Shown: positions 6,527 to 57,302 of the stretch, in pieces
Position numbering within the stretch: the first letter of the stretch is position 1
How the letters are laid out: the number at the start of each line of letters is the position of its first letter
Source of the DNA: an uncultured Blautia sp.
Lineage (GTDB): Bacteria; Bacillota; Clostridia; Lachnospirales; Lachnospiraceae
DNA: 57,302 bases
Assembly (NCBI GenBank): GCA_900542045.1
Contig: UQMI01000020.1
Span: 1-57,302, forward strand
Reading direction: 5' to 3'
Made by a program: the position numbers and the translations under genes
Notes under the pieces: model-generated
What the model saw: only the letters and a program-made list of their open reading frames with translations
The model's database searches: none
What the model was told of the DNA's origin: nothing

Positions 6527-6542
6527 ATCTGCGTATCCTTTT

Positions 6543-7862: not shown

Positions 7863-7891
7863 AAATATCACCACTTTATCTAATGTACGTA

Positions 7892-7914: not shown

Positions 7915-7922
7915 CCGATACC

Positions 7923-7950: not shown

Positions 7951-8033
7951 GTACCAATCGTAAGTTTTTATCTGACAAGATGCAACATTCCCGCCGGCTC
8001 TGACAAGATACCGGCGGAAATATTCACTTTTTC

Positions 8034-10076: not shown

Positions 10077-10089
10077 TGATCAGACTCCT

Positions 10090-16290: not shown

Positions 16291-16324
16291 ATTGACCTCC
16301 TAATTTCTCAATTAATACAATGCC

Positions 16325-16410: not shown

Positions 16411-16433
16411 TATTTTTTTTAATCCATGATTCA

Positions 16434-16465
16434 GGGGCCGGACGGCAGATCTGCCGCCCGGCCCC
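16434..16465. repeat. GC-rich inverted repeat between ABC permease and phosphatase genes
   Basis: GGGGCCGG, one unpaired base, CGGCAGA, then the complementary TCTGCCG, one base, CCGGCCCC. It lies 41 bases downstream of the end of the permease gene and probably ends or protects its mRNA. No T-run follows on either strand, so it is not a typical intrinsic terminator. Confidence 0.6.
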
Positions 16466-16505
16466 CAAGCCGTCTGTATTTCTGAAATCTCTGCTTCGGC
16501 CAATA

Positions 16506-28205: not shown

Positions 28206-28320
28206 CTGCTGCTATTCCGGTATGGTTCTGCTCTACACTGCTGCCATTCCGGTATGGTTCTGCTCTGTACCGCTGCCGGTCCGGCCGATCTGCTCTGTAC
28301 CGTTTCTGCTCCGGTTCACA
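28206..28320 (-). repeat. Degenerate 30-32 bp tandem repeats between rsmF and addA
   Basis: Read on the minus strand, four units each open with GAGCAGA. Two (28206-28237 and 28238-28269) are nearly identical and contain CCATACCGGAAT. The next two (from 28270 and from 28300) are diverged. The array lies in the 3' region of addA, directly after its stop. No spacers or palindromes give it a known identity. Confidence 0.7.
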
Positions 28321-35379: not shown

Positions 35380-35555
35380 AGACTGTTTTCCTTTCTTTTC
35401 TGTGCGTCTGCTGTCTTTCCAGGCCCCCAGGGCGAGCCGCCTCTGTACAGGAGCTGGCCGCTCCCTCCCTTTCGGCCATGGATCTTCCCAATATTCTATC
35501 ATAAAAGCCGCCTGTCTGTAATATGATATAGAAAGTAATCCAGGAGGCGCATCCC

Positions 35556-35999
35556 ATGAGTTCAAAAACCAAAATTGTCGTGTTACATATGAAAGAACTG
35601 ATCTACACCATCGTATTTCTGGCACTGGCTCTGCTTCTGGGCGTTCTGATCTTTCTGATGTTCCAGGCCAGGAACCAGGACAGTCAAACCACCAATGCCG
35701 GATCCGGAACGTATCAGCCGGGAATTTACCGTTCCACCATCTCCCTTGGGGAAAATACCTTTGACGTGGAAGTAACTGTGGATTCCGATGAGATCCAGTC
35801 CATTGACCTTACCAACTTAAACGAAAGCACCACTGCCGCGTTTCCTCTGATGGAGCCTTCCCTGGATGCTCTCGCCCAGCAGATTTACGCCAGCCAGTCA
35901 CTGGAAAACGTCACGTATTCCGAAGAAAACAAATATACTTCCATGATGCTGCTGGACGCCATTGCCGCTGCCCTGGAAAAAGCCAGACCGGCCGACTGA
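35556..35999 (+). CDS. Single-pass membrane protein with FMN-binding-like extracellular domain
   Basis: The 147-residue protein has a short basic N-terminus, one membrane helix (residues about 12-37), and an extracellular domain that follows the FMN-binding domain layout: GTYQPGIYRSTISLGENTFDVEVTVDSDEIQSIDL, then an alanine-rich helix, then ENKYTSMMLLDAIAAALEKA at the end. The usual S-G-A-T flavin-attachment motif is replaced by SEENKYTS, so covalent FMN attachment is unlikely. ATG with an AGGAGG site. It is divergent from addB and appears to be a single-gene transcript. Function unknown. Confidence 0.8.
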   Translation: MSSKTKIVVLHMKELIYTIVFLALALLLGVLIFLMFQARNQDSQTTNAGSGTYQPGIYRSTISLGENTFDVEVTVDSDEIQSIDLTNLNESTTAAFPLMEPSLDALAQQIYASQSLENVTYSEENKYTSMMLLDAIAAALEKARPAD

Positions 36000-42999: not shown

Positions 43000-43830
43000 T
43001 TACAGTAACTCCATCCTCTTCAATTGATAATAAATTCCGTCTGCACAGACATCCTCGCAGACCGCATCCGCCCGCTGTTTTAACTCTTCACAGGCATTTC
43101 CCATGGCTACGCCGATCCCGGCGGTTTCTATCATTTCGTAATCGTTCATACTGTCTCCGAAGGCGATCGTATCCTGGATCCCTACTCCATAATACGCACA
43201 TACCAGCTCCATTCCCCTTCCTTTGTCAATGCCCCTGGGGATGATCTCTCCGTTGAAACAGACGGTGCTGTCCTTATAGGGAAATACCGCATATCGGAAC
43301 CGGTCCTCCAGATATTTCTTTGTCTGTTCAATGGCCTCCAGGTTTGTACTGGTAAAACAGATCTTGTATGCCCCTTTTCCTGGATACTTCTCGTAGGGCT
43401 GGATGGAAATTCCCGCTTCAATTTCTCTCTGCATGCGGATCAGCTCGAAGTTTGTCTCATCGGGCTCGGCCATTTTCAGCAGCGCTTCCATCTGCGGATC
43501 TGTATAAATCCCATCCGGCGTTTCTATTCTGCAGTACATGCCCTGCGCATGGAACACAGACAGGCACTCCTGAATCACAGGTTCTGGAAGAAGGCTGTCA
43601 AACAGCACCTCACCGTGTACCTCCACATGCGCTCCTGCACTTGCTATTACGCCATCCACCCCCAGGTCCATAATCTCCTGGCCGATGATCGGCATATTCC
43701 TTCCCGTACACAAGCAAACGCCATGTCCGTTTTCTCTTGCTTTCCGCAGCGCCTCTTTTACCCGTCTGGACGGCGCCGCCATAGCGGAAACCAGTGTTCC
43801 GTCAATATCAAAAAAAATCAATTTCTTCAT
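43000..43830 (-). CDS. Cof-type HAD-superfamily hydrolase
   Basis: The 276-residue haloacid-dehalogenase phosphatase has motif I DIDGTLVSAM (nucleophile Asp at residue 9), motif II CLCTGRNMP, a class IIB cap (about 85-190), motif III lysine (GIDKGRGMELV) and motif IV IAFGDSMNDYEMI. Such enzymes dephosphorylate sugar phosphates or riboflavin-type substrates. It starts 22 bases after the PTS gene (GAGGAA site) and shares its terminator, so it probably acts on the sugar phosphate made by that transporter or relieves its accumulation. Confidence 0.93.
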   Translation of the reverse strand: MKKLIFFDIDGTLVSAMAAPSRRVKEALRKARENGHGVCLCTGRNMPIIGQEIMDLGVDGVIASAGAHVEVHGEVLFDSLLPEPVIQECLSVFHAQGMYCRIETPDGIYTDPQMEALLKMAEPDETNFELIRMQREIEAGISIQPYEKYPGKGAYKICFTSTNLEAIEQTKKYLEDRFRYAVFPYKDSTVCFNGEIIPRGIDKGRGMELVCAYYGVGIQDTIAFGDSMNDYEMIETAGIGVAMGNACEELKQRADAVCEDVCADGIYYQLKRMELL

Positions 43831-43852: not shown

Positions 43853-45835
43853 TTATGCTTTGCGAAGTACTGCCGCCTTGGTATCCGGACTCATTGCACC
43901 GGGCGAAGCCACCTCCAGCTTCCTGTCCTCGGGTAGATCCGTAAATATCATGGGGATCACTGTGTCATAACCTGCTTTTTCGATCTGCTCTTTGTCGAAT
44001 TCGATCAGCAGCTGTCCCCGTTTCACGGCATCACCGTCTTTTACATGGGCGGTAAAATATTTTCCCTGAAGATTTACTGTATCCACTCCGATATGGATCA
44101 GGATCTCCGTTCCCTGGCTGCTGGCAAAACAGATTGCATGCTTCGTATCAAATATGCTTGTAATGACTCCGTCGGCAGGAGCGTAGACCTTTCCTTCTTC
44201 AGGCAGCACTGCAGCTCCGTCTCCCAGCACTTTATTGGCAAAGGTATCATCATTTACTTCTTCCATGGGAATCTGCTGCCCACGGGCATATCCGAAGAAG
44301 ATTTCTTCGTCCGGCTGCTCCATGATCTCAGGTACCTCTGCGGGTTCCAGCGTACTTTCGACAGGTGCCGGCGTACTTTCAGCAGGTGCCGGGGCATTTC
44401 TGTCAGCTGCCGCCGTTTCTTCCTCCGGGGCCCGGTCCATAAATCTTCCCAGGATCAGCGTCATGACAAAGCCTCCGGCAATGGCAACTCCATGGGCTAT
44501 TATGTAATTCACATATCCATTTCCGGCAGGATCTGCCAGAGCAATTCCGGGCAACACCGTTGTGCCGAATCCGATGGCCGCAAGATTTGTCACATATACC
44601 ACGATTCCGCCCAGGGCGCCTCCGATACAGCCGCCGATGATCGGAAAGCGGTACCGCAGATTCACACCAAATAAAGCCGGTTCCGTAATTCCAAATAATA
44701 CGGAAATGAAACTGGGAATGCAAAGCTCACGGATCTTAACATTTTTTCTGTGCAGTGCCAGATATCCCAGCACGGCGCCGCCCTGAGCAATAATAGCTAC
44801 TGACATCAGGGGATTCAGGAAGTTCCTTCCCGTATCCGCCAGCAGCTGTGCCTCAATGGCACCGAAAATATGATGCAGACCGGTGATCACCACCAGCTGC
44901 TGCAGGCCGGAAAAGGCCGCATAACCCAGCACTCCCAGATTCTGCGTCATCCATACCAGACCATTGGTAATACCGGAAGAAAGTCCGCGTCCCACGGGAC
45001 CGATGACTGTAAACAGCAGCAGCGCGCCCACCAGGGTGGTAAGCAGCGGAGATACCAGAAGACGGATCACTTCCGGCACTTTCTTTTCAAAGAAGATATC
45101 CAGCTTGGCTGTTACAAATCCCATCAGCAGAGCTACAATAATACCTCCCTGAAATCCCACCAGATCCACGCCCAGTCCGAAAATATGCAGCGTTGTCACT
45201 TCCACTGTTCCCTGTGCGGCTGCGTAGGCATCTGCCAGACTGTTGCTGAGCATGATACAGCCGATCACAATTCCCAGGATGGGCCTTCCTCCAAACCGTT
45301 TGCAGGCACTGTAGGCCACAGCCAGCGGCAGAAATCCGAAAATGGCGCCCGAGGAAATATTGATCAGCGTATTGATCCCGTAGAGCGTTTCATTTGCCCG
45401 CACAAAATCCAGATTTCCCAGTACCCCGGAAAGTCCTGTGAGCAGAGCGGCAGCCAGGATTCCCGGCATAATGTCCACAAACACATCCGACAAAGCCTTG
45501 ATGACCCGCTGAAGCGGATTCATTTTCTTATTTGCCACCGTCTTCAGATCACTGAGACTCATGTTTTTCATATTGTTGTATTCCGCAAATACTTCATATA
45601 CATCATTTACCAGACCGGCGCCGAAAATAATCTGCACCTGGTCTCCAGCCACAAACACGCCTTTTGCAAGATCCACATCTTCGATGGCCTTCAAATCTGC
45701 CAGATCGTTATCCTTTAAAACGATCCGCAGACGCGTTGCACAATGGGCAACTCCCTGAATGTTTTCTTTTCCTCCAACCAGCTTTGTCAGTTCTATGGAG
45801 ATTTTTTCATACCGCTGGCGCTTATTCGCATCCAT
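43853..45835 (-). CDS. PTS transporter, fused IIBCA, sucrose/beta-glucoside family
   Basis: The 660-residue fusion imports a sugar while phosphorylating it with PEP-derived phosphate. Order: IIB (phosphorylated Cys in GVAHCATRLRIVLKDND, residue about 32), IIC membrane domain (about 100-480, with GLHHIFGAIEAQLL and FGITEPALFGVNLRY), an Ala/Pro/Glu-rich linker (about 490-515), IIA (phosphorylated His in EILIHIGVDTVNLQG, near 580). The IIC type is that of sucrose, trehalose and beta-glucoside carriers. The exact sugar is not evident. ATG with AAGGAGG. A HAD phosphatase follows and an AraC regulator is divergent upstream. No glycosidase gene is in the operon. Confidence 0.94.
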   Translation of the reverse strand: MDANKRQRYEKISIELTKLVGGKENIQGVAHCATRLRIVLKDNDLADLKAIEDVDLAKGVFVAGDQVQIIFGAGLVNDVYEVFAEYNNMKNMSLSDLKTVANKKMNPLQRVIKALSDVFVDIMPGILAAALLTGLSGVLGNLDFVRANETLYGINTLINISSGAIFGFLPLAVAYSACKRFGGRPILGIVIGCIMLSNSLADAYAAAQGTVEVTTLHIFGLGVDLVGFQGGIIVALLMGFVTAKLDIFFEKKVPEVIRLLVSPLLTTLVGALLLFTVIGPVGRGLSSGITNGLVWMTQNLGVLGYAAFSGLQQLVVITGLHHIFGAIEAQLLADTGRNFLNPLMSVAIIAQGGAVLGYLALHRKNVKIRELCIPSFISVLFGITEPALFGVNLRYRFPIIGGCIGGALGGIVVYVTNLAAIGFGTTVLPGIALADPAGNGYVNYIIAHGVAIAGGFVMTLILGRFMDRAPEEETAAADRNAPAPAESTPAPVESTLEPAEVPEIMEQPDEEIFFGYARGQQIPMEEVNDDTFANKVLGDGAAVLPEEGKVYAPADGVITSIFDTKHAICFASSQGTEILIHIGVDTVNLQGKYFTAHVKDGDAVKRGQLLIEFDKEQIEKAGYDTVIPMIFTDLPEDRKLEVASPGAMSPDTKAAVLRKA

Positions 45836-46101: not shown

Positions 46102-46926
46102 TTGCAGGACTATATTTTTTCCAATGATTTTTCCCGGAATATTGATGCCATGATCTACACCTGCGGCTTTGAAAACTGTGCCCCCGGACACAGCTACGGC
46201 CCCATCATGCGGAATGGCTATCTGATCCATTATATTTTAGACGGCTCCGGCATCTACAAAGCCCGGGGCAAACTGTTCCGTCTGCACAAGGGCGACGCTT
46301 TTCTGATCTGCCCCGGAGAACTGATCTATTACGAAGCAGACCGGCATGATCCCTGGAGTTATACCTGGATCGGCATGCAGGGCATCAAGATCAAAGGCTA
46401 TCTGGAACGCACTTCTCTTCTTACGGATCTGGTGGTCCATTACGGCCAGGATGATCAGATGCGTCTCTGTCATGAAAAAATGTTCGAAGCAGACAAACAG
46501 CCCCAGAACCGCGATCTGCTCATGAACAGCATCATGTATGAATATCTTTTCTTTCTGGCCAGAAAATTTCCAGGCAGCCAGTCTCCTGCCAGTGAAAAGA
46601 AATCCAGTTACGCAGAAGAGGCATTAAAATACATCGAAGCCCATTACTGTGATCCCATCGGCATTCAGGACATTGCCGACCATCTGAATATTAACCGGTC
46701 CTACCTTCACCGCCTGTTTAAATCGGTCACCGGCTTTTCCATTCAGAAGTATTTGCTGGATTACAGAATCAGACAGGCCTGTATCCTTCTGAAGAATACA
46801 GACCTGTCTGTCCGTGTGATCGCTCATTCTGTCAGTTATGCGGATCCCCTGTATTTCTCGAGACTCTTCCATCAGAAGATGGGGATGAGTCCCTCTCAAT
46901 ACAGGATATACACCCAAAAATTATGA
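46102..46926 (+). CDS. AraC-family transcriptional regulator
   Basis: The 274-residue regulator has an N-terminal cupin sugar-sensing domain (about 15-130: HYILDGSGIYKARGKLFRLHKGDAFLICPGE) and a C-terminal double helix-turn-helix (IGIQDIADHLNINRSYLHRLFKSVTGFS, then the conserved QACILLKNTDLSVRVIAHSVSYADPLYFSRLFHQKMGMSPSQYR). The start is a TTG at 46102 with a strong AAGGAGG site, and the frame matches the family from there. It is divergent from the PTS operon, which it probably controls through the direct repeats just upstream. Its end lies 11 bases from the convergent VOC gene. Confidence 0.93.
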   Translation: MQDYIFSNDFSRNIDAMIYTCGFENCAPGHSYGPIMRNGYLIHYILDGSGIYKARGKLFRLHKGDAFLICPGELIYYEADRHDPWSYTWIGMQGIKIKGYLERTSLLTDLVVHYGQDDQMRLCHEKMFEADKQPQNRDLLMNSIMYEYLFFLARKFPGSQSPASEKKSSYAEEALKYIEAHYCDPIGIQDIADHLNINRSYLHRLFKSVTGFSIQKYLLDYRIRQACILLKNTDLSVRVIAHSVSYADPLYFSRLFHQKMGMSPSQYRIYTQKL

Positions 46927-46937: not shown

Positions 46938-47324
46938 CTATTCCTCATAAAACTCAATTTTCGTTCCGTCCGGATCATAACAAAAACCATATGGCTTCCC
47001 TGTAGCAGCGTCTTCCCTGACCTCTGTTACAGAGACGCCCTGCCCCTTGAGCATCTGCAGCTTTTTCTGCACATTTTCCGTAAGAAAAGAAAGATGCTCC
47101 AGACCTGGCCTGAAACTGCACTTCCGGCATCCGTCCTGTTCCGCAAGATCTTCTTTCACAAACAGTTCAATGATATATTCTCCATTGCAATACAGTTCGA
47201 TTTTCTTCGCATCTTTTTTTCTGGAATAGGATTCCCGAAACACCTGAAGCCCTAACTTGTTTACATAGAAATCCATACTTTTTTTGTAATCTGATCCAAA
47301 GATACATACATGATGAAATTTCAT
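46938..47324 (-). CDS. VOC (glyoxalase/YaeR-like) family protein
   Basis: The 128-residue protein has the vicinal-oxygen-chelate fold pattern: MKFHHVCIFGSDYKKSMDFYVNKLGLQV at the start (metal-binding His), a central Glu (YIIELF), a second His (GLEHLSFLTEN) and a terminal Glu (YDPDGTKIEFYEE). This full metal set suggests an active lyase or isomerase rather than a resistance protein. ATG at 47324 with GGAGAG. It starts 32 bases after the aldolase stop and looks like the last gene of the cyclitol/sugar locus. Confidence 0.85.
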   Translation of the reverse strand: MKFHHVCIFGSDYKKSMDFYVNKLGLQVFRESYSRKKDAKKIELYCNGEYIIELFVKEDLAEQDGCRKCSFRPGLEHLSFLTENVQKKLQMLKGQGVSVTEVREDAATGKPYGFCYDPDGTKIEFYEE

Positions 47325-47356
47325 AGTTTTATCTCTCCGCAACATTCTGTCTGTTC

Positions 47357-48292
47357 TCAGGCTTTTCCGGCAGATCCCAGTACATTGACTATCTTATGTT
47401 CCACAAGTTCCTGTACCATATCCCTTGCAGGACGCAGATACTGTCTGGGGTCAAAATGTTCCGGATGCTCTACAAGTTCCTGACGTACAGCTGCTGTCAT
47501 TGCCAGACGTACATCCGAATCAATATTAATCTTACATACAGCAGACTTCGCCGCCTGACGGAGCATTTCTTCAGGAATTCCAATAGCTGCCTCCAATTCT
47601 CCCTGGTATTTCTGGATCATATCCACGTATTTCTGATTTACAGAGGAAGAACCATGAAGAACAATTGGATAATCCGGTAGCCTCTTTTCAATTTCAGCCA
47701 AAATATCGAAACGCAGTTGTGGAGTCTGCCCGGGTTTAAATTTAAATGCTCCATGACTGGTTCCTATGGCAATTGCCAGTGAATCCACACCTGTTCGTTC
47801 CACAAATTCCTGAACTTCATCGGGATTTGTATAAGAAGCATCTTCTGCTTTCACATTCACGTCATCTTCAATTCCAGCTAATTTTCCCAGTTCACCTTCT
47901 ACCACCACGCCTTTGCTGTGTGCATACTCTACTACCTGTTTTGTCAGTGCAATATTTTCCTCAAAACCATATCTGGATCCATCAATCATAACAGAAGTAA
48001 ATCCACCATCAATACAAGACTTGCAGATTTCAAAATCTTCGCCATGATCCAAATGAAGAGCCATGGGAATTTCCACCTCCAATGCAGCTGCTTCAACCAG
48101 CTTCATCAGATAATTATGACCGGCATATTTCCGGGCCCCCGCAGAAACCTGCAGGATTACCGGTGACTGCAGTTTCTGGGCAGCCCTTGTGATACCCTGA
48201 ATAATTTCCATATTATTCACATTAAACGCACCAATGGCATACCCACCTTCATAGGCCTTCCGAAACATTTCTGTTGTTGTTACCAATGGCAT
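47357..48292 (-). CDS. Class II ketose-bisphosphate aldolase
   Basis: The 311-residue zinc-dependent aldolase belongs to the fructose/tagatose-bisphosphate family. Signatures are ALHLDHGEDFEICKSCIDGGFTSVMIDGS (zinc His and catalytic Asp), VVVEGELGKLAG, IAIGTSHGAFKF (zinc His) and IVLHGSSSVNQKYVD (zinc His). The expected products are two triose units from a ketose 1,6-bisphosphate, but the substrate in this locus is not fixed by sequence. The ATG at 48292 with AGGAGGAA was chosen over a longer frame to 48316. It lies between RpiB (10 bases upstream) and the VOC gene. Confidence 0.9.
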   Translation of the reverse strand: MPLVTTTEMFRKAYEGGYAIGAFNVNNMEIIQGITRAAQKLQSPVILQVSAGARKYAGHNYLMKLVEAAALEVEIPMALHLDHGEDFEICKSCIDGGFTSVMIDGSRYGFEENIALTKQVVEYAHSKGVVVEGELGKLAGIEDDVNVKAEDASYTNPDEVQEFVERTGVDSLAIAIGTSHGAFKFKPGQTPQLRFDILAEIEKRLPDYPIVLHGSSSVNQKYVDMIQKYQGELEAAIGIPEEMLRQAAKSAVCKINIDSDVRLAMTAAVRQELVEHPEHFDPRQYLRPARDMVQELVEHKIVNVLGSAGKA

Positions 48293-48302
48293 AAAATTCC
48301 TC

Positions 48303-48749
48303 CTATCTTTTCTCAATGGCGGCTATTTTGTTGATTCTCATCTGGTGGCGACCTCCCTCAAATTCTGTATTCAAAAATAATTCCACCATCATCAGCGCCA
48401 GACCCTGTCCTACCACACGACCACCCATACAGAGAATATTCGCATCATTATGTTTTCTCGTCATCTTCACACTGAAGCAATCAGAACAGCACGCTGCCCG
48501 AATCCCCTTTACTTTGTTTGCCGCAATGGAAATTCCGATTCCCGTGCCACAGCAGAGGATTCCTTTTTCCGCTTTCTTCTGCGTTACCGCTTCTGCTACT
48601 GGCAGGGCAATATCCGGATAATCCACTGCTTCCGGCGTAAATGCCCCATAATCTTTGTAAGGGATATTCTGTGCATCAAGATATTTCTTAATTGCTTCTT
48701 TTAATTCATAACCACCATGGTCGCTTCCTATTGCTATCAATTTTCCCAT
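48303..48749 (-). CDS. RpiB/LacAB-family sugar-phosphate isomerase
   Basis: The 148-residue isomerase starts with MGKLIAIGSDHGGYELKEAI. The catalytic cysteine is in GILCCGTGIGISIAANK (residue about 65). The conserved HNDANILCMGGRVVG segment follows. RpiB homologues interconvert ribose/ribulose 5-phosphate or allose/allulose 6-phosphate. LacA and LacB act on galactose 6-phosphate. It begins 4 bases after the phosphohexomutase stop and ends 10 bases before the aldolase start, a tight isomerase-aldolase pair. Confidence 0.93.
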   Translation of the reverse strand: MGKLIAIGSDHGGYELKEAIKKYLDAQNIPYKDYGAFTPEAVDYPDIALPVAEAVTQKKAEKGILCCGTGIGISIAANKVKGIRAACCSDCFSVKMTRKHNDANILCMGGRVVGQGLALMMVELFLNTEFEGGRHQMRINKIAAIEKR

Positions 48750-48753
48750 CCTT

Positions 48754-50298
48754 TCAAATCGTCCCTAACTGACTGAACTGTGCAAAAAACGGCCGAATTT
48801 TCTTCAATATCTTTTCCGTACCGCCTTTCTGTTCTGTCTCAATATTCAACGGCATCAGAGGATCGTGCAAAGACATACGCAACAGCATCCAGCCTTTCAC
48901 ATCTTCATTACAGAAACGAACTCGCACTCCTTCATAATTTTCTTTTACAACCTGAAACCCTTTCAGCTTTCCGACAAATCTTTCAAATTCCTTCAGAACT
49001 TGAATGCCGTATGACTGATAATCTTCATCTATAATCTTAATCCTGTATTCTCGGCTTTCTTCTGATTTTTTCAATCCTGTTGTCATTTCCTGCAGCTTTC
49101 GCCCCTGCCTTTTATACAAAGCCAGACGACAAATAATTTTTACCGCCATATAAGCACCGTCATCCAGGAAATAATTCTCCTTCAGCGCCCCATGACCGGA
49201 TGTCTCTATGGCAAGATGAGATTCTATTCCTTCGCGATTCAGTCGCATTGCTTCGTTGATCACATTTTTGTAGCCTCTTTTAAAACGATGGTGATGCATT
49301 TGCAATTTCTGTTCAAGAAACTCTGTCAGATGATCAGAAGTCACAGAATCTGTCACTACGGTAGTATGGGGATAACTGTCCGCCAGAATTGCCGCCATCA
49401 GAGCAATAATCGTATTTTTATTAACTTCCTCTCCATCAGAAAAAACCACCGCCGCACGATCCCCGTCTGTATCAAAAATAATACCCAAATCAGCTCCTGA
49501 CTCCAGAACCGCAGTACGGATTGCATCCATAGCTTCTTTATTCTCCGGATTCGGCACATGATTAGGAAAATTCCCATCTGGCTCCAGAAAGATACTGCCT
49601 TCAGTAGACACTCCCATTTCCTCCAACAATCTGGCAAAATATCCGCTTACACCATTGGACGCATCTATCACAATATGTAGACCTTGCAGAGGATATGGGG
49701 AATCTTTCTCGCCCGTTTCTCTCCGAATAATAGTTTTCAGATATGCCGAATAAACATCCATCAGAGGAACCTGACGAACACTGAAACATTCTACACGCCG
49801 TTCCATTCTTGATAGAAGAATCGCCCGTCTCAGAATTTCTGAGATTTCTTCTTTATCTAAACCTCCATTTTCTGTAAAAAATTTCAGACCATTCCTATTA
49901 TATGGTAAATGGCTTGCCGTAATCATAATCGCTCCATCAAGTTTAAATTCTTCCAGCACTGTGGACATAAACATGGCCGGAGTGGAAGCCAGACCACAGT
50001 CAAAAACCTCAGCTCCTCTGTGGATCACTCCGCTGATCACACCCTGCTTCAACGATTTTGCAGAAAGCCGGGAATCATTTCCTACACCAATGCGGATATT
50101 TTCCCGTATAATATCTTTCTTTTCGCTAATGTAATCTACGAAAGCAGAAGCAATATTCTGCACCACCGCCGGCGTCAAAGTAACCCTTTCATCCGGTCCT
50201 GCAATAGCCACACCTCTGATATCGCTTCCATTCTGCAGTTTAAAATACTGTTCTTCCCACAGCTCTGTGCGCTTTTGTTTTTCTCTCTTATCCGACAT
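48754..50298 (-). CDS. Phosphomannomutase/phosphoglucomutase-family enzyme
   Basis: The 514-residue alpha-D-phosphohexomutase has the active-site serine loop MITASHLPYNRNGLKFF (near residue 132), the metal-binding loop IFDTDGDRAAVV (about 277), the sugar-recognition loop ETSGHGALKENYFLDDGAY (about 365-385) and a C-terminal phosphate-binding domain. It moves phosphate between C1 and C6 of a hexose. The N-terminus (MSDKREKQKRTELWEEQYFKL) is longer than usual. It lies between the SIS isomerase and RpiB genes. Confidence 0.92.
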   Translation of the reverse strand: MSDKREKQKRTELWEEQYFKLQNGSDIRGVAIAGPDERVTLTPAVVQNIASAFVDYISEKKDIIRENIRIGVGNDSRLSAKSLKQGVISGVIHRGAEVFDCGLASTPAMFMSTVLEEFKLDGAIMITASHLPYNRNGLKFFTENGGLDKEEISEILRRAILLSRMERRVECFSVRQVPLMDVYSAYLKTIIRRETGEKDSPYPLQGLHIVIDASNGVSGYFARLLEEMGVSTEGSIFLEPDGNFPNHVPNPENKEAMDAIRTAVLESGADLGIIFDTDGDRAAVVFSDGEEVNKNTIIALMAAILADSYPHTTVVTDSVTSDHLTEFLEQKLQMHHHRFKRGYKNVINEAMRLNREGIESHLAIETSGHGALKENYFLDDGAYMAVKIICRLALYKRQGRKLQEMTTGLKKSEESREYRIKIIDEDYQSYGIQVLKEFERFVGKLKGFQVVKENYEGVRVRFCNEDVKGWMLLRMSLHDPLMPLNIETEQKGGTEKILKKIRPFFAQFSQLGTI

Positions 50299-50358
50299 AC
50301 CTTATCTCTCCTCTTACAGGACTATCGCAGCTTATCCCGCTGTTCCATTCTTTATCTT

Positions 50359-50985
50359 CTAGTTGGCCACTTTGTTTTCATATTCTTTCAGAAGCTGCTG
50401 TCCTAAAGCTCCTCCCGGATGACTCAGGGCAAAATCCTCTTTTTTGAAATTATTCAACTCTGATACCACTGTAGCCAATGCATCTCCTGCTGCCAAAGCT
50501 GCCGTAGAACTGGCAGTGGGAGCCAGACCAAGATGATCAATTTCACCTTCCGTATTTACTAGAATAGCCACATCTGTTCCTTGCGCCAGAGGAGATGTCC
50601 GATCTTTTGTTATGGAAATTGTTTTCGCCCCAATAATTCGAAGAGACGGAAGCATATTTAATATTTCCTGGGATTTGCCGCTGTTGGAAATCATAATCAC
50701 CACGTCATCTTTTGTCACCATTCCCATATCTCCATGCAGAGATTCACAGCTATGTACAAAAAAGGCCGGTGTTCCAAGACTGGCAAAAGAGGCTGCAATC
50801 TTCTTACCGATATGGCCGGTCTTTCCCAGTCCTGTGATGATCAGTCTCCCTTTGCAGTTCAGAATCATTTCCACAGCCTGCGCATATGTATCATCCACCT
50901 GACCGGAAACTTTCACCAGCGCATCTGCTTCTCCCAGTATTTTTTCTCTGCATTTTTCAATAATTTCTTCTCTTTTTACAGTCAT
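50359..50985 (-). CDS. SIS-domain sugar-phosphate isomerase (KpsF/GutQ-type, no CBS domains)
   Basis: The 208-residue protein consists of one SIS domain. Visible are GRLIITGLGKTGHIGKKIAASFASLG (residues about 49-75), SLHGDMGMVTKDDVVIMISNSGKSQEI and the C-terminal FALSHPGGALGQ typical of arabinose-5-phosphate isomerases. The CBS pair found in KdsD/GutQ/KpsF proteins (usual total about 320 residues) is absent and the gene ends cleanly at a TAG, so it is a natural SIS-only form, as in catabolic clusters. No KDO pathway genes are nearby, so arabinose-5-phosphate isomerase for LPS is unlikely. Confidence 0.88.
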   Translation of the reverse strand: MTVKREEIIEKCREKILGEADALVKVSGQVDDTYAQAVEMILNCKGRLIITGLGKTGHIGKKIAASFASLGTPAFFVHSCESLHGDMGMVTKDDVVIMISNSGKSQEILNMLPSLRIIGAKTISITKDRTSPLAQGTDVAILVNTEGEIDHLGLAPTASSTAALAAGDALATVVSELNNFKKEDFALSHPGGALGQQLLKEYENKVAN

Positions 50986-51000
50986 CTTATAATCTCCTTC

Positions 51001-51960
51001 CTATTTATTCACCATATTCGGTTTTCTCTCAATCGATACCGCAACTGCCAGCACCAGCACAACGCCTTTGATAAACAACTGTACTTCTGACGGCATTCCC
51101 CAGAGCACCAGTCCATTGGACAATACCTGGAGCGTTAAAGTACCGATCAGTGTTCCCCTCACACCGCCAATACCGCCTCGCTGAGAAGTACCGCCCAGCA
51201 CAACAGCGGAAATCACATCCAGTTCATATCCTTCTCCCACGGAGGGTGATCCAGAACCGATCCGGGCTGCCATGACAAGGCCTCCAAGAGCCGTCAGTAC
51301 ACCTGCAAACAAAAAGACCAGTATTTTCTGTTTTGTCACATTAATACCGCTCAGCCTAGCCACGGTCTCATCCCCACCGATTAGACGGGTATAACGTCCA
51401 AACAGGGTATAGCGTTCAATCAACCATACAATAATAAATGCTACTACACCAATAATCAGAAGCCAGGGCCGCTGGCCAAAAAACTTTTTAAAAGGGCTGT
51501 CAAACGCAATCATTGTAATCGTTCCTTCACTGATCATAGTCACTGTTGCCCTGGCAATGGACAACATACCCAAGGTTACAATGAAAGTCGGTACCATCAG
51601 CTTCGTATGAGTTACACCCATGATCAGATATGCCAGCAGCGATACTGCAACTGCCCCCAATATAGTAAGCAGCATATTCTCCGTAGATAAGAAAATCTTT
51701 GCAGCAATCACCCCACAGAGACTGATCATTGAGCCTACAGACAAGTCAATGCTTCCAAGCATGATAATAAAAGTAGCTCCCAGAGCACAGATCAGCAGGT
51801 CAATAGATGAGCCACTGATGCTTAAAATATTACTAACCGTCAAAAACCTGCCTCCAGTAGTCAGTGAAAACATGACCAGCAAGATAATCAGCGCTAAAAA
51901 TGAAATGTTCTTTCTTATGAATTCTTTATAAGATTTGTTCTGAGTTTGCATTTTTCCCAT
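51001..51960 (-). CDS. ABC transporter permease, ribose/inositol family (RbsC-like)
   Basis: The 319-residue protein has about 8-10 membrane helices. It shows the family segments LGATFIIMLGSIDLSVGSMISLCGV (residues about 60-84) and SAVVLGGTSQRGGIGGVRGTLIGTL (about 250-275), the EAA-like cytoplasmic loop that docks on the ATPase. It would form the channel for the neighbouring ATPase and binding protein. ATG at 51960. About 80 bases separate it from the ATPase gene and 15 bases from the SIS gene. Confidence 0.93.
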   Translation of the reverse strand: MGKMQTQNKSYKEFIRKNISFLALIILLVMFSLTTGGRFLTVSNILSISGSSIDLLICALGATFIIMLGSIDLSVGSMISLCGVIAAKIFLSTENMLLTILGAVAVSLLAYLIMGVTHTKLMVPTFIVTLGMLSIARATVTMISEGTITMIAFDSPFKKFFGQRPWLLIIGVVAFIIVWLIERYTLFGRYTRLIGGDETVARLSGINVTKQKILVFLFAGVLTALGGLVMAARIGSGSPSVGEGYELDVISAVVLGGTSQRGGIGGVRGTLIGTLTLQVLSNGLVLWGMPSEVQLFIKGVVLVLAVAVSIERKPNMVNK

Positions 51961-52039
51961 ATCCTTGCATTCCTTTCCTTCCGGACAGTTCCGGAATCTT
52001 CATGAGCCTTTTTCGCTCCATTATGTTCGTTTGTAAGTC

Positions 52040-53551
52040 TCAGACCATTTTGGTTGCCACAGCTTCTTCTGTAAATAACTCATTCCGATTAAATTCCCCG
52101 GATACTACACCTTTTTTAAAACAATAGATACGATCACTCATTCCCAGAAGTTCCGGAAGCTCGTCGGAGATTAAAAGAATCCCTTTTCCTTCATTTTTCA
52201 GATTCTCTAGGATTTTATATATTTCATACTTTGCTCCCACATCCACACCTCTTGTGGGAGAATTCACGATCAGAAATTCCGTATCATTGGCAATCCACTT
52301 TGCAATTGCTACTTTCTGTCGATTTCCTCCACTCAGATCAGAAACCGGCGTCAACTCAGACGGAGTTTTTATCAGAAACTGCTGAATCGCATCTTTTGCC
52401 ACTTTTTGTTCCAGCTTATGATCAATCACCGAATGATGGCTCATTTTCTTCATATTCGCAGCTGAAATATTCAGAACTGCATCGTAAATCAAAAACAGTC
52501 CTTCCTTATCACGGTCTTTGGGAATATATCCAATCCCATTCCGAATGGCCTGCAGCGGAGATTTTATCTGGATTTCTTTACCTTTATAAATAATTTTTCC
52601 ACCAGTAGATTTTTCGTAGCCAAATAGTGCCTTTCCGAATATATCCGAGCCACAGCCTCCAATTCCGGCAATCCCCACAATCTCACCGGAACGAACTGTA
52701 AGATTAATGTTCTGAAAATCTTCTCCCTTTGAGAAATTTACCGTTTCCAGCATCACTTCCCCAATTGAACTGTTATCTTCATCCCTGTATACGGCATCTG
52801 ATACATCCCGGCCCACCATATTTTGTATGATCAGCTCCGGAGTTGTATCACTGACATCCATTTTCGTGATCAGCTTACCGTCCCGAAGAATACTGACTCT
52901 GTCACAGAGACTGTAAACTTCATCAATGAAATGGGAAATATAAATAACCGCTGTTCCTTTCTCCTTTTGCTCTTTTAACAACTGGAACAGATTATCCACC
53001 GACTCCTTGGATATTGCGGCGGATGTTTCATCTACCAACAAGACTCTTGGATTATTGGAAAGCGCCCTTGCAATTTCCACTTGTTTTCTTTCTTCAAAGC
53101 CCAGATCCGAAAGTACATCTGTTGGCTTGATATGATCATATTTGAAACGATGCAGAATTTCAGCTGCTGCATCATTCTGCTTTTTCCAGTCAATCAGTCC
53201 TATTCTATTTGTAAACTCTTTATCACGACCCATAAATATATTTTCTGCCACTGTCATATTAAAGGCAAAATTCGGCTGCTGCATAATGATAGAAACGCCC
53301 GCTTTTTCTGCTTCGCGAACCCCTTTGGGATCATAAGGTTCTCCAAATACCTCCATACTTCCGGCTGTTCTGTCATAAATCCCCATAATGATCTGAAATA
53401 ATGTAGACTTACCGGCACCGTTTTCTCCCACCAGACCATGGATTTCTCCTGCTCGAATATCAATAGTGTCTTCCGGCTCCCAGTCCAGTGCTTTCGTACC
53501 CGGAAAATATTTTTTTATACCTTTTAATACCACTGCACTCTGCAATATCAA
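52040..53551 (-). CDS. ABC transporter ATPase, two-domain, ribose type (RbsA/MglA-like)
   Basis: This 503-residue double ATPase belongs to a CUT2-type importer. First half: Walker A GENGAGKSTLFQ (near residue 45), signature region DLGFEERKQVEIARAL, Walker B RVLLVDETSAAIS. Second half: degenerate Walker A (GIGGCGSDIFGKAL), intact signature LSGGNRQKVAIAKW, and Walker B LIVNSPTRGVDVG. In E. coli RbsA the last motif reads LDEPTRGVD; here the Asp and catalytic Glu are replaced by Asn and Ser (codons at 52262-52264 and 52259-52261). A degenerate second Walker A plus altered second Walker B suggests that only one ATP site is fully active. The partner permease is downstream and the binding protein upstream. 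Confidence 0.93.
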   Translation of the reverse strand: MILQSAVVLKGIKKYFPGTKALDWEPEDTIDIRAGEIHGLVGENGAGKSTLFQIIMGIYDRTAGSMEVFGEPYDPKGVREAEKAGVSIIMQQPNFAFNMTVAENIFMGRDKEFTNRIGLIDWKKQNDAAAEILHRFKYDHIKPTDVLSDLGFEERKQVEIARALSNNPRVLLVDETSAAISKESVDNLFQLLKEQKEKGTAVIYISHFIDEVYSLCDRVSILRDGKLITKMDVSDTTPELIIQNMVGRDVSDAVYRDEDNSSIGEVMLETVNFSKGEDFQNINLTVRSGEIVGIAGIGGCGSDIFGKALFGYEKSTGGKIIYKGKEIQIKSPLQAIRNGIGYIPKDRDKEGLFLIYDAVLNISAANMKKMSHHSVIDHKLEQKVAKDAIQQFLIKTPSELTPVSDLSGGNRQKVAIAKWIANDTEFLIVNSPTRGVDVGAKYEIYKILENLKNEGKGILLISDELPELLGMSDRIYCFKKGVVSGEFNRNELFTEEAVATKMV

Positions 53552-53578
53552 TTTCCTCCTTATCTGTCTGTTTCAGGC

Positions 53579-53624
53579 AAAAAACCCTGCCGGAACAGAT
53601 TTCCTGTAACAGCAGGGTTTTTTT
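53579..53624 (-). terminator. Hairpin between binding-protein and ATPase genes
   Basis: On the minus strand ACCCTGC and GCAGGGT form the stem, with an inner ACAG/CTGT pairing, and TTTTTT follows. It lies in the 183-base gap between the binding protein and the ATPase. Such hairpins often let the binding protein be made in excess over the membrane parts. Confidence 0.8.
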
Positions 53625-53734
53625 CTGAAACAGCATTGCATCTGCCAGCTATTCTTTATACCATTTCTGTTAATCTAATTCCGGCTATACTGCCGTATCG
53701 ATCATCCTTCACTGTATATCCATTCTCCTGTTTC

Positions 53735-54874
53735 TTATTCCAGAGAAAGTGCGAAGTCATAAGTTGCATCTGGATTAGTTACTTTAGAGAGGGACGTCCA
53801 GTCAATCGGTGAGCTATCAGACATAAATTTCTCTTCATATTGATCAAGATTTTCCTGAGAAACGGTGAGCAAATCCAACTGGATATTCAGTTCCCCGTCA
53901 TATTCTATGCCGCTGGCTACATCATAAGCAACAATTGCAGCAAATGCCGTCTGCAAATAATGACCGCCGGTAGAGAACCACAATTCTCCTGCCTGCATAG
54001 ATTCAACTGCCGGTCCAAGCAAGTCCATTCCGCCTGTTTTTACATCTGATATACGATTTTCTTCCTTCAGAACATTCACTGTTGCCAGTGCAAGCGAATC
54101 ATTGTAGCACCACACTCCATCCAGCTCTGGATGTGCCTGATACAGATTTCGAAAAGCTTCATCTCCGTCATCCCAGTTTTCACCGGCATACTCAAACTGA
54201 AGTAATTCTACATCCGGATTTTCTGCCAGCGCCTTGTCCAGACCAGCTTTTCGGTTTTCTGCCACAGAAGTTCCCTGGTATCCACCAATTCCTACCAGTT
54301 TTGTACAGCCAGCATTAATCAGTGACATAGCAATTTGATAACCAGCTTCCTCATCATTTGGTCCAATAAAGCATACATAATCTTCCCCGGCTGTCAAATC
54401 ATCTCCCGGCCATCTGTCGATGATGACCACCGGAATATTCTGTTCCTTACAAGCTGCAGTGATTCCTGCACACACAGAGGCATCCTGCGGTCCCAGCACC
54501 AGTGCATCAATCCCAGATGAAAGCATACTCTCCACATCTGTTACCTGTTCTGCCTGATCATTGTTGCAGTCATTCGCCAGAATATCAAATCCAATCGCAT
54601 CTGCCGCCTGCTGTAGATATTCAAGTGCGTTACTCCAGAATTCATTGTTCGCTGTCGGATAAGAATAACCAATGGTCAAAGTCTCTCCTGATGAAGCAGT
54701 TTCTCCGCTGTCAGTCTCTTCTGTCCCTGCAGCACTGTCTTCTTCTGATGCTGCTTCGGTTACTTCTGCTGCCGCATCCCCTGTATCTTCAGAACTGCTG
54801 CCGGAACCACCACAAGCAGTAAAACTCAACGCCATTATTCCCGTCAATACTATTGCCAACCATCTTTTTCCCAT
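53735..54874 (-). CDS. Substrate-binding lipoprotein of the CUT2-type ABC importer
   Basis: The 379-residue protein starts at the ATG at 54874 (AAGGAGG site). A lipoprotein signal peptide (MGKRWLAIVLTGIMALSFTACGG, lipobox cysteine at residue 21) is followed by a low-complexity Glu/Ala/Ser linker and a two-lobed sugar-binding domain of the ribose/galactose/inositol class (IGYSYPTANNEFWSNALEYLQQAAD; VLGPQDASVCAGITAA; GGMDLLGPAVESMQAGELWFS). It is anchored outside the cell and delivers substrate to the permease. It is encoded after the dehydrogenase (68-base gap) and before the ATPase, with a hairpin between. The ligand is unknown. Confidence 0.92.
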   Translation of the reverse strand: MGKRWLAIVLTGIMALSFTACGGSGSSSEDTGDAAAEVTEAASEEDSAAGTEETDSGETASSGETLTIGYSYPTANNEFWSNALEYLQQAADAIGFDILANDCNNDQAEQVTDVESMLSSGIDALVLGPQDASVCAGITAACKEQNIPVVIIDRWPGDDLTAGEDYVCFIGPNDEEAGYQIAMSLINAGCTKLVGIGGYQGTSVAENRKAGLDKALAENPDVELLQFEYAGENWDDGDEAFRNLYQAHPELDGVWCYNDSLALATVNVLKEENRISDVKTGGMDLLGPAVESMQAGELWFSTGGHYLQTAFAAIVAYDVASGIEYDGELNIQLDLLTVSQENLDQYEEKFMSDSSPIDWTSLSKVTNPDATYDFALSLE

Positions 54875-54941
54875 TTTATATACCTCCTTCTTCGGCCCGG
54901 TCTCTGCATTCCAGAAGACCGAGTATATTCTACTTAAATTC

Positions 54942-56117
54942 TTATTTGATTTCCGGTGCATCATAATGAGGAACTATGTACTCTTCCTGAAGAGGAAGCT
55001 CCACCCAAGAATTAGTTTCCATAGATTTGTACGCACCTACCAGCACATCGGTTACAATCGCACTGTCCTCTGGCGTCAAAGACGGCTGTATATCCTTTTC
55101 AATACAGTTTAAGAAGTGTTCCAGCATGGATTTATATGCCCAGCCGCGTTTCGGATAAATAGGCACCCAACGCTTCGGTACCATTCCGTCCGGCTGCATG
55201 ATATCCTCTGACCAGAATAGCTGCGGATACCGGTATTCTCTTACAATTTCAGGAAGCTCACTCTGTTTGAAATCTTTACTTGTGTAAACTGCTAATGGTG
55301 CGGTCTGATAAGGATTGGTAGCTTCGGATCCTGTAAAAATCATACCTTCTGTTCCATAGATTTCGGAAATGTTAGATACTACTGGAGAGTATCTATCACC
55401 GCTGATCATCCCAGTGGCTCCGTTTTCAAATTCAATAGTAATCCAAAAAGAATCATCCAGCACCGTGTACTCTTCCGGTGTACCCAATCGTTTGATAATA
55501 CCCATAACCCGTTTTGGGCGGCTTCCCATAAGAAACATCAAAAGATCCGCTCGATGTGCTCCCAGATCAAACAGCGCTCCTGCACCTGCCAGACTTGGCT
55601 CTGAACGGAAAGGAGTAAAAGAAAGCTGTTCATGATACAGGCCCCAACCTTCATGTAGTGACGAACGCCCCATCATAGGAGCACCAATATACCCTTTATC
55701 CATCAGATCTCTGGCAATTTGATTTTGCTCCCAAAATCTCTGATTTGTTCCTGCCATCAAAAACACGCCCTCTTTTTTGGATACATCTACCATCTTCCAT
55801 GCTTCATTATGTGTGCATGCAAAAGGCTTTTCCACGATCACATGTTTTTTTGCTCTCATAGCATCAATTGCCTGCTGCGCATGAAAACGATTGGGCGTTG
55901 CTACGATCACAACTTCTACATTTTTATCTTCCAACATGGCTTCATAGGAAGTATAAGATTTCTCCGGATTCCATTTCTTTGTCATTTTATCCAGGATTTC
56001 TTTGTTGCTGTCACAAAGTGCAGCCAGTTTGGCATTTGGCAGTTCCACGATGGAAGGACAATGTCCAATTTCAGCAATAGAACCTGCACCCACAATACCT
56101 ACTCCGATTTGTCTCAT
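54942..56117 (-). CDS. Gfo/Idh/MocA-family NAD(P)-dependent oxidoreductase
   Basis: The 391-residue protein has an N-terminal Rossmann fold (IGVGIVGAGSIAEIGHCPSI, residues 4-23, and VIVATPNRFHAQQAIDAMRAKKHVIVEKPFACT with the conserved EKP lysine near 98). A C-terminal alpha/beta domain carries the substrate-pocket DLGAHRADLLMFL motif (His near 188). The family includes inositol 2-dehydrogenase and many sugar dehydrogenases. With a PfkB kinase and an inositol-phosphate synthase upstream and a ribose/inositol-type importer downstream, oxidation or epimerisation of a cyclitol is plausible. ATG with GGAGG. It starts 31 bases after the kinase stop. Confidence 0.9.
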   Translation of the reverse strand: MRQIGVGIVGAGSIAEIGHCPSIVELPNAKLAALCDSNKEILDKMTKKWNPEKSYTSYEAMLEDKNVEVVIVATPNRFHAQQAIDAMRAKKHVIVEKPFACTHNEAWKMVDVSKKEGVFLMAGTNQRFWEQNQIARDLMDKGYIGAPMMGRSSLHEGWGLYHEQLSFTPFRSEPSLAGAGALFDLGAHRADLLMFLMGSRPKRVMGIIKRLGTPEEYTVLDDSFWITIEFENGATGMISGDRYSPVVSNISEIYGTEGMIFTGSEATNPYQTAPLAVYTSKDFKQSELPEIVREYRYPQLFWSEDIMQPDGMVPKRWVPIYPKRGWAYKSMLEHFLNCIEKDIQPSLTPEDSAIVTDVLVGAYKSMETNSWVELPLQEEYIVPHYDAPEIK

Positions 56118-56148
56118 TTCTTTTTCCTCCCACTATACGACAAATTTT

Positions 56149-57072
56149 CTATTCACCTGTGGCAATCCTTTTTTCTACTCTTTCCCTGGATGGCATTCTG
56201 CCCAAAGTACACCCGCCGGATTTCTGAATAACCAAAGATGCTGTAGCATTGCCATTTACAGCTGCTTTCCTCATATCACGTTCTTTCACATAAGAAGCCA
56301 TAAAACCTGCGCCAAAAGAATCGCCTGCACCGGTAAAATCCAGACTTCCATCAGGATTTTCACTCACTGCATGAAAAGAATCGATATACTGTACTTCCTT
56401 TTCATTTTCTTTGAACAATGCACCTTTTCCACCAAGCGTTACCACCACATTGGGTGCTCCCGCTTTCACAAGATAATCCACAGCCTCTTCCACGGTTTTT
56501 CCAGGAAAGATTGATGCCAGATCTTCCTCACTGGCTTTAATGATCGTAGCATTCTGACAAAGAGTCTCAATTACCATCTTTCCATACGCTTCGTTAACCG
56601 AATGCCTCACATCACTGGTAGCACCACCATATCCCCCCAAATCCACAAATATGGTCTTTCCTCTTTCATAAAGTTCTTTCACCAGATCTAGTTCCACTTC
56701 GTAATTCATTGGGCATATTTTAAAATAATCTGCTTTTAGATAATCCGGATGAATATCCTGAAAACAGATATTCGGTGCCGCCTTCTGATAAACCACATAT
56801 TTTGTACCATCTTCCCGATAAACCAACTGATTGGTTGTTGAATATTCATATGGCATAACACCCCGTCTATCCAGTACATCCAATTCTGATATAATATTGT
56901 CCATATCATTGCCATAATATGTAACCAGCCCAACTTTTCTGCCCTGGGCAGCCATAACCAGACTGGAATAGGCTGCCGGACTCCCAATCACAGGGCCAAT
57001 TGTTCTGGTAGGGAACTCAATGGTCTCTTTGATAATCGTTCCAATTGCAATAATTTCTAACTCTTTTTCCAT
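56149..57072 (-). CDS. PfkB-family carbohydrate/cyclitol kinase
   Basis: The 307-residue ribokinase-fold kinase has an N-terminal strand and substrate loop (GPVIGSPAAYSSLVMAAQGRKVGLVTYYGND, residues about 26-55) and the C-terminal anion hole LDFTGAGDSFGAGFMASYV (catalytic Asp near 254). The N-terminal loop G-S-P-A-A-Y-S-S resembles the GGAYYSA-type loop I recall from archaeal myo-inositol 3-kinases more than ribokinase itself. The inositol-phosphate synthase gene immediately upstream strengthens that reading, but substrate identity is inference. ATG at 57072 preceded by a weak GGCGGG site. Confidence 0.88.
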   Translation of the reverse strand: MEKELEIIAIGTIIKETIEFPTRTIGPVIGSPAAYSSLVMAAQGRKVGLVTYYGNDMDNIISELDVLDRRGVMPYEYSTTNQLVYREDGTKYVVYQKAAPNICFQDIHPDYLKADYFKICPMNYEVELDLVKELYERGKTIFVDLGGYGGATSDVRHSVNEAYGKMVIETLCQNATIIKASEEDLASIFPGKTVEEAVDYLVKAGAPNVVVTLGGKGALFKENEKEVQYIDSFHAVSENPDGSLDFTGAGDSFGAGFMASYVKERDMRKAAVNGNATASLVIQKSGGCTLGRMPSRERVEKRIATGE

Positions 57073-57096
57073 AATTTTACCCGCCTGTTGAATTTT

Positions 57097-57302
57097 CTAT
57101 TTTCCTGCAATGAAGTCTTCCAACATGGCACGGCACTCGTCATCGGGATGCTGCACCGGCGGATGTTTCATAAAGTAGGATGCCGGTGCTTCAATAGGGC
57201 CTGCCATCCCCCGGTCTTTTGCCAGCATACAGCATCTTACCGCGTCCACGCTGATCCCGCCGGAGTTGGGACTGTCGATTACATCCAGCTTCAGGCTCAG
57301 AC
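57097..57302 (-). CDS. Myo-inositol-1-phosphate synthase, C-terminal end (partial)
   Basis: The open frame enters from beyond the window and stops with TAG at 57097-57099. The 67 visible residues begin LSLKLDVIDSPNSGGISVDA and continue AVRCCMLAKDRGMAGPIEAP, then YFMKHPPVQ. This is the conserved C-terminal block of inositol-3-phosphate (myo-inositol-1-phosphate) synthases, which convert glucose 6-phosphate to inositol phosphate with NAD. The kinase begins 24 bases downstream, so the two are probably co-transcribed. The catalytic lysines lie outside the window and cannot be checked. Confidence 0.85.
   Translation of the reverse strand, partial: LSLKLDVIDSPNSGGISVDAVRCCMLAKDRGMAGPIEAPASYFMKHPPVQHPDDECRAMLEDFIAGK

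Follow-up and report, generated by a model that had tools for sequence, protein, structure and literature searches.

Inositol breakdown in bacteria is represented, among the described systems closest to the locus considered here, by the classical iol pathway (IolG-IolE-IolD-IolB-IolC-IolJ) and by the inositol cluster of Thermotoga maritima. The latter is given in PMC5931981 as TM0411-TM0416, with a kinase, TM0415, which uses pyrophosphate, and the same text names inositol 3-phosphate (Ins(3)P) as the product of the myo-inositol 3-kinase (MI3K) of Thermococcus kodakarensis. Here, we describe a cluster of eleven genes at one end of a 57,302-nucleotide stretch of DNA from an uncultured Blautia sp. 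(assembly GCA_900542045.1, contig UQMI01000020.1; the whole stretch is called the window), in which a homologue of inositol-phosphate synthase stands next to a PfkB-family kinase, a Gfo/Idh dehydrogenase, a sugar-type importer and sugar-phosphate isomerases, and which may constitute an inducible module for the utilisation of cyclitols.

The eleven reading frames run on the minus strand from 57300 down to 46938, in the close order reported by a first-pass annotation made from the letters alone, an order which both the frames and the family searches bear out. The spacings between successive frames are short (24, 31, an overlap of 23, 183, 79, 15, 60, 4, an overlap of 14, and 11 bases), so that a single transcription unit is plausible from the layout; a consensus terminator scan listed no terminator-like minus-strand site in the 183-base gap, each of its five minus-strand sites lying inside a gene. 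Ten of the frames have a Pfam match, the synthase fragment being matched by an NCBIfam model instead. The genes, together with the regulator gene convergent with them, are the following.

57097..57300, minus strand: myo-inositol-phosphate synthase (Ino1 type), C-terminal 67 residues; cut by the window end, with the remainder outside the window.
56149..57072, minus strand: PfkB/ribokinase-family kinase of a distinct subfamily, putative cyclitol or inosose kinase (PF00294; GSPAAYSS loop, DLGGYGG motif).
54942..56117, minus strand: Gfo/Idh/MocA dehydrogenase, IolG-like (PF01408/PF22725; K97/D184/H188 triad; TIGR04380 best, below its cut-off).
53735..54964, minus strand: CUT2-type sugar or cyclitol substrate-binding protein (PF13407); the start codon is possibly further downstream.
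52040..53551, minus strand: CUT2 ABC ATPase, RbsA-like (PF00005 twice; RbsA model best, below its cut-off).
51001..51960, minus strand: CUT2 permease, RbsC-like (PF02653; NF007067 best, below its cut-off).
50359..50985, minus strand: SIS sugar-phosphate isomerase of KdsD/GutQ type without CBS domains (PF01380; KdsD model 208.7 bits; 5uqi, E 1.6e-51).
48754..50298, minus strand: alpha-D-phosphohexomutase family protein (PF02878/PF02879/PF02880).
48303..48749, minus strand: RpiB ribose-5-phosphate isomerase (TIGR01120, 188 bits against a cut-off of 138.65).
47357..48316, minus strand: class II ketose-bisphosphate aldolase (TIGR01859, 369 bits against a cut-off of 343).
46938..47345, minus strand: VOC/glyoxalase-superfamily protein (PF00903).
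46102..46926, plus strand: AraC-type regulator, convergent with the cluster and possibly its regulator (PF02311, HTH_AraC).

What the first-pass annotation had put forward as the test of its own interpretation, namely that synthase and kinase are linked to the dehydrogenase, the importer and the isomerase, holds in relatives. A genome scan with kinase patterns alone as the query gave 30 confirmed loci (numbered L below, and genomes G), and tblastn placed a synthase at most 2.6 kb from the kinase in 29 of them; in the other, L022, the kinase match begins at base 102 and the locus starts at a contig end, so that the synthase linkage cannot be checked. A dehydrogenase at 47-91% identity is found in 20 of the 30 loci, lying about 8-9 kb downstream in L002 and L003, and in the genome of L001 one stands just outside the first locus (L037). 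The SIS isomerase is present in 12 of the 30 loci (one being a partial match at a locus end) and the N part of a transketolase in six. The linked loci span Bacillota (Lachnospiraceae, Anaerotruncus), Actinomycetota, Chloroflexota, Acidobacteriota and Thermotogota (Kosmotogaceae). Since a scan by kinase alone finds the synthase in 29 and a dehydrogenase relative in 20 of 30 loci, the synthase-kinase-dehydrogenase linkage is real, old and far beyond chance. In addition, pairwise distances correlate between synthase and kinase (0.88; 276 pairs, 24 loci), between synthase and dehydrogenase (0.95) and between kinase and dehydrogenase (0.90; both 153 pairs, 18 loci), correlations owed in part to common ancestry of the hosts.

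As for the extent of the cluster, the eleven genes annotated in the window stand, and the unit is larger in relatives, where ribulose-phosphate epimerase (RPE), a split transketolase, a second kinase and LacI are added. The Bacillota unit, read from L006 with L032 and from L005 with L031, whose halves lie on separate contigs, runs through synthase, kinase, dehydrogenase, importer, SIS, MFS transporter, mutase, aldolase, HAD and VOC proteins, and continues with RPE, the N and C parts of transketolase, the second kinase and LacI; it is shorter in L007 with L033, and L007 belongs to the complete genome of Anaerotruncus colihominis DSM 17241. In L007 the synthase occupies 8877-9956, the kinase 9995-10924 and the dehydrogenase 10994-12166, and the SIS match falls at 16022-16630. 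RPE exceeds the TIGR01163 cut-off (279.6 against 212.6), each transketolase half matches the corresponding half of transketolase models, and RPE and aldolase occur in several Bacillota loci. The second kinase was found in seven of nine Bacillota genomes searched (G001, G003-G008), the four compared directly being 41-49% identical to the window kinase. Relatives of the VOC protein are present in the clusters of L001, L002, L003, L007 and L008, and the first three also hold open reading frames resembling the C-terminal part of the window AraC gene (32-33%). G001 also carries a second synthase copy on a separate contig (L035, 8045-9121), 97% identical to the first and adjoining RPE, split transketolase, second kinase and LacI.

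Outside Bacillota, the core is kept in changing company. In Actinomycetota, each of L009, L014 and L017 holds synthase, kinase, dehydrogenase and SIS; importer genes accompany them in L009 and L014, and a LacI gene adjoins L009 and L017. Importer, SIS, transketolase and LacI are found in L023, the locus from Kosmotogaceae. Chloroflexota and Acidobacteriota loci have an SDR gene (family-tested in L016, L020 and L028, recognised by sequence start in L021, L027 and L029) and no SIS match, L028 also having LacI and CUT2-type importer genes. In the Caldilineaceae loci L012, L018 and L019 the pair adjoins a distant Gfo-family gene and a sugar-importer permease of the other type, the latter family-tested in L012. 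G415, of the same family as G001, shows the order SDR, a more distant kinase, synthase and dehydrogenase (43% identical), and LacI is close by. The loci thus repeatedly include importer genes and regulators of LacI or AraC type, LacI being assigned by Pfam in L003, L009, L017, L023, L028 and L051. Aminotransferases stand in four loci, of DegT type in L011 and L015 and of class III in L022 and L025, and URO-D-family proteins in L015 and L025, both of one genome; these four loci possibly serve aminocyclitol or methylated cyclitol metabolism. As a separate observation, a distant DLGGxGG-type kinase occurs in L036 (G009, 3146-10073), a stretch in which no synthase was found. Its neighbours there include two Gfo-family genes, an IolE-like protein scoring 66.9 of 290 bits, a zinc alcohol dehydrogenase that the IolM model matches but other models score higher, an SDR and a PHP protein.

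The synthase annotated in the window is only a 67-residue C-terminal piece, and its identity was upheld through full-length relatives. The fragment matches the C-terminus of TIGR03450 (E 7.1e-22) and the Mycobacterium tuberculosis Ino1 1gr0 (E 3.7e-18), and shares 90% identity with the C-terminus of the L001 synthase, a full-length protein which in turn matches 1gr0 with E 1.9e-96. K195, K242, K246, K274 and K336 and the motif GDDxKSQxG are invariant in 14 of 14 synthases, and K242, K246, K274 and K336 align with lysines of the Archaeoglobus fulgidus Ino1, in whose 3qvx sequence the K336 position is Ala; we take the invariant lysines to be catalytic. Ino1 homology together with the conserved lysines is therefore a property of the full-length relatives. 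A synthase subfamily with a changed reaction, acting on another phosphorylated sugar as Ari2 does, is a distinctly improbable explanation. The second-best PDB match of the L001 synthase is a five-membered-cyclitol-phosphate synthase, 6k96 (E 1.4e-56), presumably the aristeromycin enzyme Ari2, all ten full-length relatives tested fall below the 638-bit cut-off of TIGR03450, the mycothiol-type Ino1 equivalog (284-381 bits), and the kinase acceptor site is unlike that of inositol kinases; nevertheless, the synthase is clearly nearer to the M. tuberculosis Ino1 (326 against 195 bits), and the invariance of its lysines and motif argues for unchanged chemistry.

PF07994 is a weak detector of this clade, exceeding its cut-off in one of 12 genomes, each of which has a locus where a synthase was read, and therefore our own alignments were used. 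A control for synthases without the kinase covered 391 genomes of the class of G007 and 397 of the family of G001, at a synthase threshold of E 1e-40 or better. Eight genomes of the two samples hold a synthase (4/391 and 4/397), four of them with the kinase too (G001, G004, G007, G415). Three of the four kinase-less synthases (G033, G034, G169) adjoin a protein like the L044 fusion, in which Pfam, run on L044 only, recognises an NTP transferase and a CDP-alcohol phosphatidyltransferase, and which we take to be of the inositol-phosphate cytidylyltransferase/DIPP-synthase type. In the synthase tree, built without G566 and G415, these three rows form one group against 26 kinase-linked rows (100/100; midpoint root). 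Because of this split and of the fusion neighbour, the kinase marks, in the rows examined, a separate synthase lineage and use. The supply of inositol lipids, which the first-pass annotation had offered as an alternative, is accordingly disfavoured as the main role, since the cytidylyltransferase/phosphatidyltransferase-type neighbour belongs to the kinase-less synthases. The fourth of these (L058, 4117-5169, G566) may belong to a natural-product cluster; its neighbours are an ABC protein, a phosphopantetheine-binding protein and an S-adenosylmethionine synthetase.

The kinase of the window, to which a 99%-identical protein (P0001) was found in the protein collection, had been proposed to phosphorylate inositol. 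Its acceptor half is indeed nearest to an inositol kinase, the archaeal myo-inositol 3-kinase (3w4s/4xf7; E 2.2e-6, the next match having 1.6e-4), and the glutamine contacting inositol is missing from it. According to PMC5931981, Asp, Gln and Arg residues contact inositol in the characterised inositol kinases (MI3K/TM0415), and Arg 232 of TM0415 is the signature of a pyrophosphate-dependent ribokinase-family kinase. Asp 12 of MI3K aligns with an invariant Glu 16 and Gln 136 with Gly 146, Arg 140 reaching Gly 150 only when the alignment is extended by two residues. Since the equivalent of Arg 232 is absent in 37 of 37 kinases, which have Ala, Gly or Val at this position (GAGD, GGGD, GVGD), dependence on pyrophosphate was rejected. 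Fold searches with the kinase model (pLDDT 93.2) placed it near ribokinases and TM0415 alike, a second search tying the two, so that the fold does not name the substrate. To judge from its residues, the kinase appears to be a distinct subfamily, for which, as it lacks the inositol-contacting Gln, an inosose or modified cyclitol would be as likely an acceptor as inositol itself.

K97, D184 and H188 are conserved in 19 of 19 dehydrogenases and correspond to the Lys-Asp-His triad of the Bacillus subtilis IolG, as described in PMC9603128. The best NCBIfam model is IolG (TIGR04380) for all three dehydrogenases tested, each below its 355-bit cut-off (window 139.3, L017 153.6, L023 152.6). Other Gfo/Idh sugar dehydrogenases share this triad. 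The window binding protein is matched by ribose, galactofuranose and rhizopine-type models, all below their cut-offs, and a PDB search returned ribose-type and other sugar binders with no clear specificity. The SIS isomerase is nearest to 5uqi and to the arabinose-5-phosphate isomerase 2xhz, scoring 192.9 bits with TIGR00393 (cut-off 203.7), which the L014 enzyme exceeds with 213.6; its histidine motifs LHGD and HPGG, presumably catalytic, are retained in nine of nine rows. These features leave room for two functions side by side, a quite unlikely arrangement in which importer, kinase, SIS arabinose-5-phosphate isomerase, RPE, RpiB, transketolase and aldolase would form a pathway for a pentose such as D-arabinose, and synthase and dehydrogenase would meet an unrelated need for inositol. 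The KdsD/GutQ-like SIS with both motifs, RPE and RpiB over curated cut-offs, the ribose-type importer models and a database protein in which the kinase is fused to a SIS enzyme (P0068) agree with it. Against it, the synthase-kinase pair persists in loci that yielded no SIS, transketolase or importer, or that have an SDR in their place, which is why we assign the kinase to the synthase.

From the genes, their families, the conserved residues and the linkage across phyla, we infer a substrate, an order of steps and a direction, as follows. The CUT2 importer would bring an inositol-type cyclitol into the cell, where the Gfo/Idh enzyme would oxidise it to an inosose; the PfkB-family kinase would phosphorylate the ring beside the ketone, and the synthase homologue would open it, by retro-aldol cleavage and return of the hydride, to an aldose 6-phosphate. 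The SIS isomerase would then form a ketose phosphate, to be taken up by RPE, RpiB, transketolase and the class II aldolase. A ketone as the proposed entry point would explain the lost inositol contact of the kinase. The aminotransferases of four loci are compatible with a ketone node, and so is the finding that six of 12 genomes (several being drafts) gave no match to inositol monophosphatase, compared with its presence in 14 of 14 controls; the L036 stretch, in which a distant kinase accompanies Gfo-family, IolE-like and zinc alcohol dehydrogenase genes, also counts for a cyclitol module.

Several points weigh against cyclitol utilisation, the most serious being energetic. The conversion of glucose 6-phosphate to inositol 3-phosphate releases roughly 50-60 kJ/mol, in line with heats of combustion that place inositol about 50-60 kJ/mol below glucose; opening the ring from inositol phosphate would accordingly be next to impossible inside a cell. 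On these grounds, a simple return from inositol 3-phosphate was rejected; thus, of the route first annotated, from uptake through the kinase to reversal of the synthase and glucose 6-phosphate, the linkage holds and the simple reversal is thermodynamically strained. Entry as an inosose lowers the barrier without removing it, the route from inosose phosphate with NADH being, by a rough estimate, some 30 kJ/mol uphill with the ATP spent not counted, hence hard but less so. The inositol-contacting Gln is absent from all 37 kinases, with Gly or Ser at its position and Gly at that of the Arg, and the kinase could act on something else. Ten of the 30 loci are without a dehydrogenase at 47% identity or more; only a distant Gfo-family match (22-29%) was found in L011, L012, L018, L019, L022 and L025, no dehydrogenase relative was found in L004 or L024, L030 ends soon after the kinase start, and L001, the tenth, is the locus with the gene just outside it. 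A Gfo-family gene accompanies the aminotransferase in all four loci, at 47% identity in L015 and at 22-29% in the remaining three, so that aminotransferase and dehydrogenase do not clearly replace each other. Moreover, the best named models of the importer are ribose-type and all below cut-off, inositol monophosphatase is present in the other six of the 12 genomes, SIS, RpiB and RPE are needed equally by a D-arabinose or other pentose pathway, and mutase, VOC, HAD, MFS and second kinase are given no step in the proposed scheme. The unit is also rare and patchy, the kinase occurring in one of the 391 class-level genomes (the seed itself) and in three of the 397 family-level ones, the seed G001, G004 and, in a distant form, G415.

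The same energetics favour flux in the opposite direction, in which imported sugars would pass through SIS, RpiB, RPE, transketolase and mutase to glucose 6-phosphate and, by the synthase, to an inositol or inosose phosphate, kinase and dehydrogenase interconverting the ring products towards a cyclitol or aminocyclitol for export or for the cell surface. The five conserved lysines suggest standard synthase chemistry, and the MFS transporter of several clusters and the aminotransferases of four loci would suit such a product. Nevertheless, ABC importers with a substrate-binding protein turn up repeatedly, as do LacI/AraC-type regulators, which is typical of catabolic operons, and no cytidylyltransferase or phosphatidyltransferase was found among those cluster genes that were family-tested (not every gene), unlike the neighbours of the kinase-less synthases. 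Biosynthetic flux is thus considered unlikely, and it is because energetics are the weak point of the catabolic direction that utilisation of cyclitols, the reading we prefer, is held at somewhat short of even chances.

A more specific form of cyclitol utilisation, which we regard as doubtful, would be an undescribed phosphorylative inosose pathway with a catabolic synthase. The ketone would arise from cyclitols by the dehydrogenase and perhaps, in some loci, from aminocyclitols by the aminotransferase, and the aldose phosphate would be taken by the SIS isomerase in Bacillota, Actinomycetota and Thermotogota, and by the SDR oxidoreductase in Chloroflexota, Acidobacteriota and one genome of G001's family. 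A literature search of titles and abstracts found no publication on the cluster with the terms used, and the phrase 'inosose kinase' matched none; the pieces are known, and novelty would lie in their combination, in the kinase subfamily and in a synthase working catabolically. If true, cyclitols would have one more route of breakdown beside those of the iol and Thermotoga systems, inositol-phosphate synthase would gain a catabolic role, and there would be a suggestion of how anaerobic and gut bacteria that lack iol genes could exploit cyclitols from phytate or plants; with the flux reversed, gut bacteria would have a new cluster for making cyclitols. On the whole, the interpretation given in the first-pass annotation is partly supported.

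Elsewhere in the window, just past the AraC gene, a PTS EIICBA sugar transporter (43853-45835) and a Hydrolase_3 (HAD) protein (43000-43830), both on the minus strand, are a separate sugar-uptake unit. The minus strand also carries a Prismane/CO dehydrogenase family protein (156-2048), a sulfatase-domain protein (8034-10076), a valyl-tRNA synthetase-like protein (10090-12738), an alkaline phosphatase (14722-16290) and a pair formed by a UvrD-type helicase (AddA-like) and AddB (28316-35625).

With the classical iol pathway, the cluster has in common a Gfo/Idh enzyme as the likely first step, a PfkB-family kinase, a class II aldolase and an importer. It differs in that IolB, IolD and IolE are not among the eleven genes of the window, whose kinase is far below the IolC cut-off (59.6 of 300 bits), and in having synthase, SIS and pentose-phosphate enzymes instead; in the relatives, a search made for IolE alone found it over its cut-off in none of 12 genomes (best 214 of 290 bits). 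Compared with TM0411-TM0416 of T. maritima, of which the L036 cluster is reminiscent, the kinases lack the Arg 232 of TM0415 and the synthase is part of the core. The T. kodakarensis myo-inositol 3-kinase (3w4s, 4xf6, 4xf7) is the best PDB match of the kinase acceptor half, and its product, Ins(3)P, is also that of the synthase; however, its Asp 12 is replaced by Glu and its Gln 136 by Gly in the cluster kinase. The biosynthetic loci, in which a synthase accompanies the cytidylyltransferase/DIPP synthase, contain the same synthase family (44-47% identity to the L001 synthase), but no kinase, dehydrogenase, SIS or importer match lies nearby (within 8-9 kb in G033 and G034, 4 kb in G169). Finally, the sulfoquinovose transketolase pathway resembles the present cluster in combining a sugar-specific isomerase with a split transketolase in a catabolic cluster, whereas the core described here is of cyclitol type.

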